Shown here: piece after piece, positions 15,295 through 18,300 of the stretch | Numbering within the stretch: position 1 is the first letter of the stretch | Layout of the letters: each line of letters opens with the position of its first letter | Source of the DNA: Dermatophagoides farinae | Taxonomy: Eukaryota > Arthropoda > Arachnida > Sarcoptiformes > Pyroglyphidae | Direction: 5' to 3' | NCBI RefSeq assembly: GCF_024713945.1 | Contig: NC_134686.1 | Span: 1,140,001 to 1,204,000, forward strand | DNA: 64,000 nucleotides | The notes under the pieces: model-generated | Databases searched by the model: none | What the model saw: the letters and a program-made list of their open reading frames with translations, nothing else | What the model was told of the DNA's origin: nothing | Program-made: the position numbers and the translations under genes

Positions 15295-15399
15295 CCATAA
15301 TCATAATCATCATGCGAAATGTAAGTTTTTTATTTATTTGTTGTTGTTGTAACAGATAAATACGTTGTTTCAACAATTTCATCATTACAGATATCGCCA

Positions 15400-18300
15400 A
15401 TGGATATTAAAGAAATTGAAAATGTTTTTGTCAGCGTTCGTATACGACCATTCATATCCTTTTTCTTAAAAAAAAAAAAACAAACAAACAAAATTTTACA
15501 AATCAATTTTTGATTATTATTCCTTAATTTTATTTTATTTGTTTTTTTTATATATAAATTCATTTCGTTTCGTTTGATTAAAACACAATCAACGAGAAAA
15601 AAAACGTTCAGCCAAATCAATAGTATCGTTGATTGATTCGAATAGTATAATATTGAATCATCCGGAAGATGATGATAATCGTAAACGTTTTATTTATGAT
15701 CGTATTTTTTGGTCACATGATGGATTTACTGAAGCACAGAATGGTCTATTTGTGGCCGATAATAATCATCCGGATGGTGAAATTTATGCCGATCAAGTAT
15801 GATGATGATGATGGGATTTATATTTAACTGAAATTGAATTTTTTCTCTTTACCGTGTAGCAATGTATATTTCAAACATTAGCATTACCATTGCTCAATAA
15901 TGCATGGCGTGGTTATAATGTATCATTATTTTGTTATGGTCAAACTGGTTCCGGAAAATCATATACAATGGTTGGCCTAGGCGCCAACAAAGGATTAGTG
16001 CCAAGAATTTGTGAAGAATTATTCAATATTATTGATAATCGTAAAGGAATGGATATTAATACTGAAGTAAATTTGTCCATGATAGAATTATATTCAGAAA
16101 ATGTACGTGATCTTCTTGATACTGAATATAATGTGAAAAAGAAAGGATTAAAAATTCGTGAACATCCTGTAAAAGGTTTTTTCGGTATGATGATAATTTC
16201 ACAACTTGTGTCATTTTGTTTTTATTAAATTGAAAATTTTCCACATTTTTTTCATACATATCAGCTGAAGGCCTAATACGTTGTACGGTTTTATCGCAGA
16301 AAGAAATTCTGGAAAAATTTGAACAAGGTGTCACTAATCGTAGTATATCGGCAACAAATATGAATGAAACATCATCACGATCACATATGATAATCACAAT
16401 AACATTGAGTCAACGTTCAATCAATTCGAATGGCAATGAAGAGACGAAAACATCTGTAATAAATCTTGTCGATCTAGCTGGAAGGTAAATAAATGATTAA
16501 TTTCAACCGATATCAATATCAATTTCATTAATTAAAATGATGATCTTAAAAAAAAAATAGTGAACGACTATCTGATTTAGCTGGTGGACGAAATTCCGTT
16601 ACTGGTGATCGATTCCGTGAATCTGTTGCCATTAATCAGTCATTGTCATGTTTAGGCAATTGTATACATGCATTGGCTGAAAAAGCAAATGGTCGTAATG
16701 TTAAAGTACCATATCGTGAATCAGTGTTAACACGATTATTAATGAATGCATTGGGTGGTAACAGTAAAACGGCAATGATTGCCAATATTAGCCCAGCTGA
16801 TATCAACTATGATGAAACATTATCAACATTACGTTATGGTTTGTATCATTCAAAAAAATTTCTAAACATTGATCATTGATCATTCTATGGTCTGATTGTT
16901 TTAATTTTTATTTTGTTTGCAACAATGGTGTTATATAATGATTGAAATGAAAAAATTTATTATTACAAATTTTTCCTTATAGCCGATCGAGCGAAACAGA
17001 TACAGAATTTTGCCAAAATCAACATTGATAATACTGATAAGATTATCAGAGATCTTAAAGAAGAGAATGAAAAATTGAAAAAATTATTGGAAAAAGAATC
17101 GACAGTAGCAGCAGCAGCAGCGGCTGCTGCTTCGGCTGCCGTGGCCACCAATACTGCCTCAACAACATTGTCCAAATCACCATCACAGTCCTTTTACGGT
17201 ATCATTGATTCTTCATTTTCCATCATGTTTTTGTTTTTGTTTCTTGATTTTCATTTTCATTTTCATTTTTCATTTTATAATAGATGATGATAATAAATTG
17301 AAATTAGAAGAAGAAATTGAAGCCATTATGAAGGAAAATGAAAGAAAATTAAATGCATTACGACAATCATATGAAGAACGTTTACAACAGGAACGACAAG
17401 AACGTTCACATAAAGAGCTTGAAGAAAATCGTAAACAAATTGAACTTGAAAAACAGCAAAAAGAAATGAATCCACATTTGTCCAATCTGAATTTCGATGA
17501 ACAACTTGTAGATAAAATTATTTTCATTATTAAAACTGGCACAAATTTGATTGGCAAAGGCGGTGATTGTCCAATACAATTGATGGGTCCATTGATACAG
17601 GATCATCATGCTGTTATTAATCGTACGGAAAATGAAAAAATCATATTGGAACGTATCGATGATGAATGTCGTATCCTATTGAATGGTGATCTAGTCACAC
17701 ATAAAGTCAATTTAGCACATAATGATAGGTATATATGGTATTATTGAATGGCAATAAATCACTAATTTATTTGGATTTTTATACAAATTGACATTTTTAT
17801 TCTCTCTCTATCACTCTAATTCCCATTTATTCTGCTTATCATCATTATAGGTTATTATTCGGTACATCACAATTGTTTGTATTCAGGAATCCTCTTGATA
17901 GTTTGCATGGAAATTCCATATTGAATGTAACATATGAATTAGCACAAGAAGAAATAGCATCAAAAGCTGGCTATAATTTTAACAACGATGATAACTCAAT
18001 TGAACAGGAATTGTTGAATAAAGAACTATTAGAATTGATTCCAGCTGTTGAGGAGGCAAATGCCATTAGTGAAGAATTGGAAAAAATGGTCCATTTTGAA
18101 AATGTACTTGTATCGCCAATATTTTTAGGGAAAATTGGCCGTAAACCTGAAGTAAGATGATGATGATAAATATTTGATTATAAAAAAATTTGGTAGTGAA
18201 GAAATCTGAAATTATCATTTTTTTTGTTTTATTTCTTTTTTTTTCTCCCATTTTCCAAAATCAAAAAAAAAAACACACATATAAAGCCATATGTACACGT

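Follow-up and report, generated by a model that had tools for sequence, protein, structure and literature searches.

Whether a minor-class (U12-type) AT-AC intron persists in this genome, and whether the RNAs that could remove it are encoded there, is the question raised by a 133-nt segment at positions 15454..15586 of the forward strand. The segment interrupts a kinesin motor domain in the window, that is, the whole 64,000-nt stretch of DNA that was analysed.

A probable AT-AC intron in a kinesin-3 motor domain

The segment is free of AG, opens with the U12-type 5′ splice site ATATCCTTT at 15454..15462, carries the U12-type branch-site match TTCCTTAAT at 15520..15528 with its As at 15526 and 15527, and closes with CAC at 15584..15586, the in-frame intron end (all on the + strand). 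The original prediction, which had read an exact U12 donor consensus and an AC end here, was thus correct in both letters and coordinates. The extended 5′ splice site and the branch site are each of U12 type, and these two are the defining features of such introns according to PMC3584512, where spacing and absence of a polypyrimidine tract are merely typical. Removal of the 133 nt in phase 0 joins 15453 to 15587, and the joined frame is open, restores RIRPFNQRE as had been claimed and continues as NQREKKRS from 15587, whereas read-through runs into stop codons. The donor falls exactly at the RPF|N codon boundary, and the RIRPFNQRE region is the nucleotide-pocket motif of the motor. Use of the AC ending at 15584, which adjoins the acceptor CAC, would shift the reading frame.

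The exons on either side are those of a kinesin-3 gene on the + strand. Its first coding exon (15400..15453) has its ATG 9 nt after the cag that ends at 15390, and the second (15587..15796) begins NQREKKRS. The third (15860..16184, with the P-loop GQTGSGKS), the fourth (16265..16484) and the fifth (16561..16838) have GT-AG introns on both sides, and the sixth (16983..17198), where the motor domain ends, is preceded by a GT-AG intron and followed by a GT donor. The six motor exons were joined with their ends placed at splice dinucleotides so as to preserve the frame, and by this procedure four of the five introns are GT-AG and one, 15454-15586, is AT-AC. The joined motor (PF00225) aligned nearly end to end with 7wrg at 394 bits and with RPFN in register, this being the best solved-structure match among the best 60 of 157, followed in the same set by KIF14, KIF13B and KIF1A. 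The entry 7wrg is named 'Kinesin-like protein' and is presumably C. elegans KLP-6. An FHA domain (PF00498, 31.7 bits, cut-off 20.7) comes after the motor in an exon region at 17286..17732 whose ends are approximate, and motor followed by FHA is the kinesin-3 architecture.

[AG]TATCCTT was found a single time in the window when both strands were scanned, at the kinesin donor, and TTCCTTRAY once per strand, the + strand copy lying inside the AT-AC intron. Under a dinucleotide model of the window, ATATCCTTT has a probability of 7e-6 of standing at a given site, and TTCCTTRAY of 0.003 of standing anywhere in the intron. The combined pattern TATCCTTTN{30,60}TTCCTTRAY matched once in the 62.4-Mb genome, at this intron, but the reversed control pattern gave 0 and 2 matches, so that the donor and branch pair alone is not beyond genome-wide chance. 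Since rarity is insufficient by itself, the case rests on the coding and on where the signals fall, exactly between two codons of a conserved motif. Altogether, a real U12-type AT-AC intron at 15454-15586, hosted by a KLP-6-like kinesin-3 gene, is given a probability of roughly 0.88. It is a well-supported intron of an ordinary kind; what sets it apart is the spacing of its branch site and how far the RNAs expected to act on it have diverged.

Branch spacing and the rival readings

The branch site had been described as unusually far, about 59 nt, from the acceptor, and measurement bore this out: the As at 15526 and 15527 lie 60 and 59 nt before the last intron base. The optimum for U12-type introns is reported as 11-13 nt (PMC3584512), and the kinesin intron departs from this typical spacing. 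Known animal AT-AC U12 introns, such as those of fly prospero and human PROX1 (Table 2 of PMC2831892), resemble it in their ATATCCTT donor, TCCTTAAC-like branch and AC acceptor, but have the branch approximately 11-13 nt from the acceptor as opposed to 59-60 nt; the host gene here differs as well, being a KLP-6-like kinesin. The branch-site match, at about −66 to −58, is also outside the −55 to −5 interval in which intronIC scores branch sites (PMC7367187). A branch site this far away would put the 11-13 nt rule to the test.

Between branch site and acceptor lies a T-rich stretch of 54 nt without AG or AC (15529..15582, +), composed of 34 T and 3 C interrupted by 13 A and 4 G. The lack of both dinucleotides is not significant by itself, because 13% of composition-preserving shuffles of the stretch were also free of both. 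U12-type introns are typically without a distinct polypyrimidine tract (PMC3584512), and the T-rich 3′ part of the kinesin intron looks more like that of a major-class intron. A hairpin bringing the branch nearer to the acceptor was considered and discarded, the predicted energy being merely −2.5 kcal/mol with no strong structure.

That the branch lies roughly five times as far away as the optimum is what would speak for a relic, i.e. an intron of U12 origin now decaying and mostly retained or mis-spliced, with an acceptor that has drifted out of range and a kinesin that is losing its function. Such a reading may overlap with that of a genuine U12-type intron, and it is improbable given that the joined motor frame is open across all six exons, that the motor aligned to 7wrg over nearly its entire length and that the FHA domain is present after it.

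The original prediction had further held that no GT suited to a standard donor follows RPF nearby and that no AG precedes NQRE. The absence of AG from the segment means that a GT-AG intron cannot end inside 15454-15586. As a refinement, GTs upstream at 15424, 15430, 15436 and 15440 and AGs downstream ending at 15596, 15611, 15623 and later permit eight in-frame splices with standard dinucleotides. A larger GT-AG intron, for instance one with its donor at 15440 (GTATACG) and its final AG ending at 15611 or 15596, would produce a protein without RIRPFNQRE and would make the U12 signals accidental. Every one of the eight removes this conserved motif, and for the two that were tested the first exons scored 50.0 and 51.7 bits against the Pfam kinesin model, 14.2 and 12.5 bits below the 64.2 bits obtained with the AT-AC splice. 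With the exact U12 donor at that place then amounting to a 7e-6 coincidence, the larger GT-AG intron is very unlikely.

Predicted minor-spliceosomal RNAs

The search for snRNAs that the original prediction had called for was successful for U6atac and U11, which were both above the Rfam cut-off; U4atac came out below its cut-off and was recognised by co-changed pairing, and U12 is represented by a divergent candidate only. As a control of the method, U2 was found three times in the genome. U11 (G000:C7:1827191-1827395) scored 51.8 bits on its locus and 45.7 genome-wide with a cut-off of 39; at a loose E of 1 the U11 family also gave a below-cut-off match in one of the 14 control genomes, a cyanobacterium. 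The predicted RNA begins GAAAAGGG, and GAAAAGGGG at its start can pair with the kinesin donor (TCCTTTTTC, 15457-15465) at −9.8 kcal/mol with two G-U pairs. U6atac (G000:C4:4978258-4978364, positions 1501-1607 on the minus strand of its locus L011) scored 60.7 bits with a cut-off of 33. Its AAGGAGAGAAGGTTAGCACTCCCC is intact and the stretch that follows departs from the Rfam consensus. Two pattern searches for U6atac were abandoned, one with the canonical core (13 matches at two mismatches, none exact, and one match of the reversed control) and one with a two-part pattern (one match, control 0) that led nowhere; both were fruitless because the U6atac of this genome is altered in those positions.

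The U4atac gene (G000:C7:3601302-3601431, positions 1501-1630 on the minus strand of L012) had 45.7 bits, under the cut-off of 53, with an E of 3e-5. Its 5′ GTCCTCATCCAGG and the CCTGGATGAGGAC of U6atac are perfectly complementary over 13 nt, where 400 random pieces of the window reached at most 11. Compared with the Rfam consensus pairing of U4atac and U6atac at 15 positions, there are two double changes (C-G to U-A and A-U to G-C), three U-U mismatches that have become pairs, one pair lost, one changed to G-U and eight unchanged, a comparison that omits two consensus C-G pairs whose U6atac bases are bulged in the alignment. The U4atac of this genome pairs with the consensus U6atac at −10.3 kcal/mol versus −26.6 kcal/mol with its own U6atac, while the reverse swap of partners gave −21.5 kcal/mol and is weaker evidence. 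The gene was accepted in spite of its score because of the perfect 13-nt complement and the two double compensatory changes.

Upstream of their RNAs, L018, L020, L021 and L012 share an element that resembles an snRNA promoter and lies around AAAACTGTAA, or CAGTAA in the case of U4atac; its core ends 52-57 nt before the RNA start. The region upstream of U6atac was less similar. One of the three U2 copies, at 1501-1692 of L020 (144.2 bits), has ATTTAGTA in place of GTGTAGTA around the branch-binding region and is either a variant U2 or a pseudogene.

U12 is the weak point of the case for a minor spliceosome. The Rfam U12 family had no match in the 62.4-Mb genome and none in the control genomes either, a negative result that does not equal absence; the canonical U12 core with up to three mismatches gave 0 matches genome-wide and two in the control. 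The pattern AGTAAGGAN{36,65}AATTTTTG, which combines the branch-binding motif with an Sm site, gave five matches genome-wide and two in the control. One of the five, L015, is a divergent U12 candidate near 1501-1556 on the minus strand, at around 4807085-4807140 of G000:C4, with AGTAAGGAAAATAA and the Sm site AATTTTTG in a sequence reading AGTAAGGAAAATAATCGGG...AATTTTTGTAGG. Upstream of it, GTAACGAAAAACTGTAATG resembles the element common to U2, U11 and U4atac, with a promoter-like score of 13.2, a value that a single one of the 127,962 window positions attained. The promoter model was built from four sites (two U2, U11 and U4atac) and is a modest test: the left-out U11 was equalled or beaten by 717, the left-out U4atac by 273 and U6atac, which was never in the model, by 941 of the same 127,962 positions. 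The distance to the promoter element implies an RNA start approximately 33-38 nt before AGTAAGG. The other four matches, L013, L014, L016 and L017, were discarded as U12 candidates on best upstream promoter scores of 0.8 to 6.1, against the 13.2 of L015.

The L015 candidate had a fold z of −2.98, and its GTGCT and GACC are able to pair with AGCAC and GGTT of U6atac at −15.7 kcal/mol; among 3,000 random 38-mers, 20 did as well or better, down to −21.8 kcal/mol for the best. It was not called U12 by cmscan. L015 is probably the divergent U12 of this genome. A 7-bp hairpin, CTTTGTG/CACAAAG, adjoins its branch-binding motif.

The idea that the major (U2) spliceosome removes the AT-AC intron, for which there is precedent in the major-class AT-AC introns of human SYCP2 and TAF2 and in the 34 T of 54 in its 3′ part, is very improbable when the donor is a full U12 consensus able to pair with U11 of the same genome, a U12-type branch-site match lies within the intron and U11, U4atac and U6atac genes are predicted alongside. 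The U12-type AT-AC reading put forward in the original prediction is supported by the same donor and branch-site match, by the AC end and by these predicted RNA genes.

From the signals present in the DNA and the RNA genes predicted in it, we infer every step by which the kinesin intron would be spliced. U11 would recognise the donor by pairing with TCCTTTTTC, and the divergent U12 the branch site by pairing with TTCCTTAAT; U6atac would leave U4atac and then replace U11 at the donor, where its AAAAGGA is able to pair with TCCTTTT at −6.2 kcal/mol. The acceptor would be the CAC that keeps the frame, at a distance of 59-60 nt from the branch As and beyond a T-rich stretch that has neither AG nor AC, and the outcome would be an mRNA encoding an intact motor domain. 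A working minor spliceosome in this genome is suggested by the same evidence.

The one protein searched for was CENATAC, which has a preference for AT-AN introns in human cells; its PF14968 profile did not find it in the genome, the only weak match being EBP2. The locus concerned (L022 1414-2472, − strand) was rejected as CENATAC, being an EBP2 rRNA-processing gene (PF05890, 199.1 bits). Tentatively, the minor spliceosome here may be a stripped and rewired one, with a U12 beyond the reach of Rfam, a 13-pair U4atac/U6atac duplex rebuilt by compensatory change, possibly no CENATAC and a relaxed choice of 3′ splice site that accepts an AC ~59 nt away from the branch; it would serve a few AT-AC introns, among them the ones in the KLP-6-like kinesin and prospero.

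Minor introns in mites and a signal set at prospero

The genome of the kinesin intron is probably that of a mite, judging by its size and composition and by a prospero fragment with 49 of 56 positions identical to fly, and thus of a group in which minor introns have almost vanished. Acari (mites and ticks) are described as extremely poor in them, and some species have reportedly none left (PMC10639083). The mite Aculops lycopersici retains just one AT-AC U12 intron, which lies in a calcium-channel gene, and Tetranychus urticae is said to have three U12 introns (PMC7738191); a predatory mite has been annotated with U11, U12, U4atac and U6atac (PMC7936031). Mites that retain a minor spliceosome are thus of an already known kind. 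The Aculops intron is, like the kinesin intron, an isolated AT-AC minor intron retained in a small genome, but it lies in another gene, is 12.5 kb long and has RNA-seq support, whereas the kinesin intron is 133 nt and predicted from sequence. A literature search on house dust mites gave only PMC7738191, and one on U12 introns in kinesins gave no clear report among the matches listed. Surveys could undercount minor introns and their machinery in a genome such as this, because the kinesin branch site falls outside the intronIC interval and because the Rfam model that one such survey employed does not recognise the U12 candidate. What a minimal minor spliceosome still requires can be seen from a genome in which hardly any minor introns remain.

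The relaxed pattern TATCCTTTN{28,58}CCTTRAY, whose gap range excludes the kinesin intron by one base, had five matches genome-wide and by itself means little, since the reversed control had 22. One match, at 1500-1577 of L026 (G000:C9, 85497-85574), is a complete AT-AC U12 signal set directly before a homeo-prospero domain (PF05044), which aligned with 1xpx. It reads ATATCCTTTTC...GTCCTTAACTTCTTTGCAC, is 78 nt long, phase 0 and stop-free, and ends in CAC; the spacing between the branch As and that end is an ordinary one (12 and 11 nt). An AT-AC U12 intron is already known at prospero/PROX1 (PMC2831892, Table 2), and from the position of the signal set beside the domain we infer that the site is the same.

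Given its open interior, retention of the 78-nt segment would add 26 residues, and the segment could therefore be an optional, exitron-like minor intron that is either spliced or retained. Drosophila prospero is a twintron with AT-AC U12 signals at the same gene, whose two products differ by 29 residues (PMC3564746), as against 26 here, and a nested GT-AG intron inside the 78-nt segment was not apparent by eye. With its open frame, the signal set might be a simple form of the switch that the twintron provides in fly.

The four other matches of the relaxed pattern were dropped by eye, L023 (c) and L027 (t) with a first base that is not A or G, and L024 and L025 with an implausible coding context on one or both sides. 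Within the 180 nt upstream of position 1500 of L024 stands GGCCCCACCGAGATTCGAACTCGGG, which on the opposite strand looks like a piece of a tRNA; ARAGORN called no gene there, and the stretch is a possible tRNA remnant.
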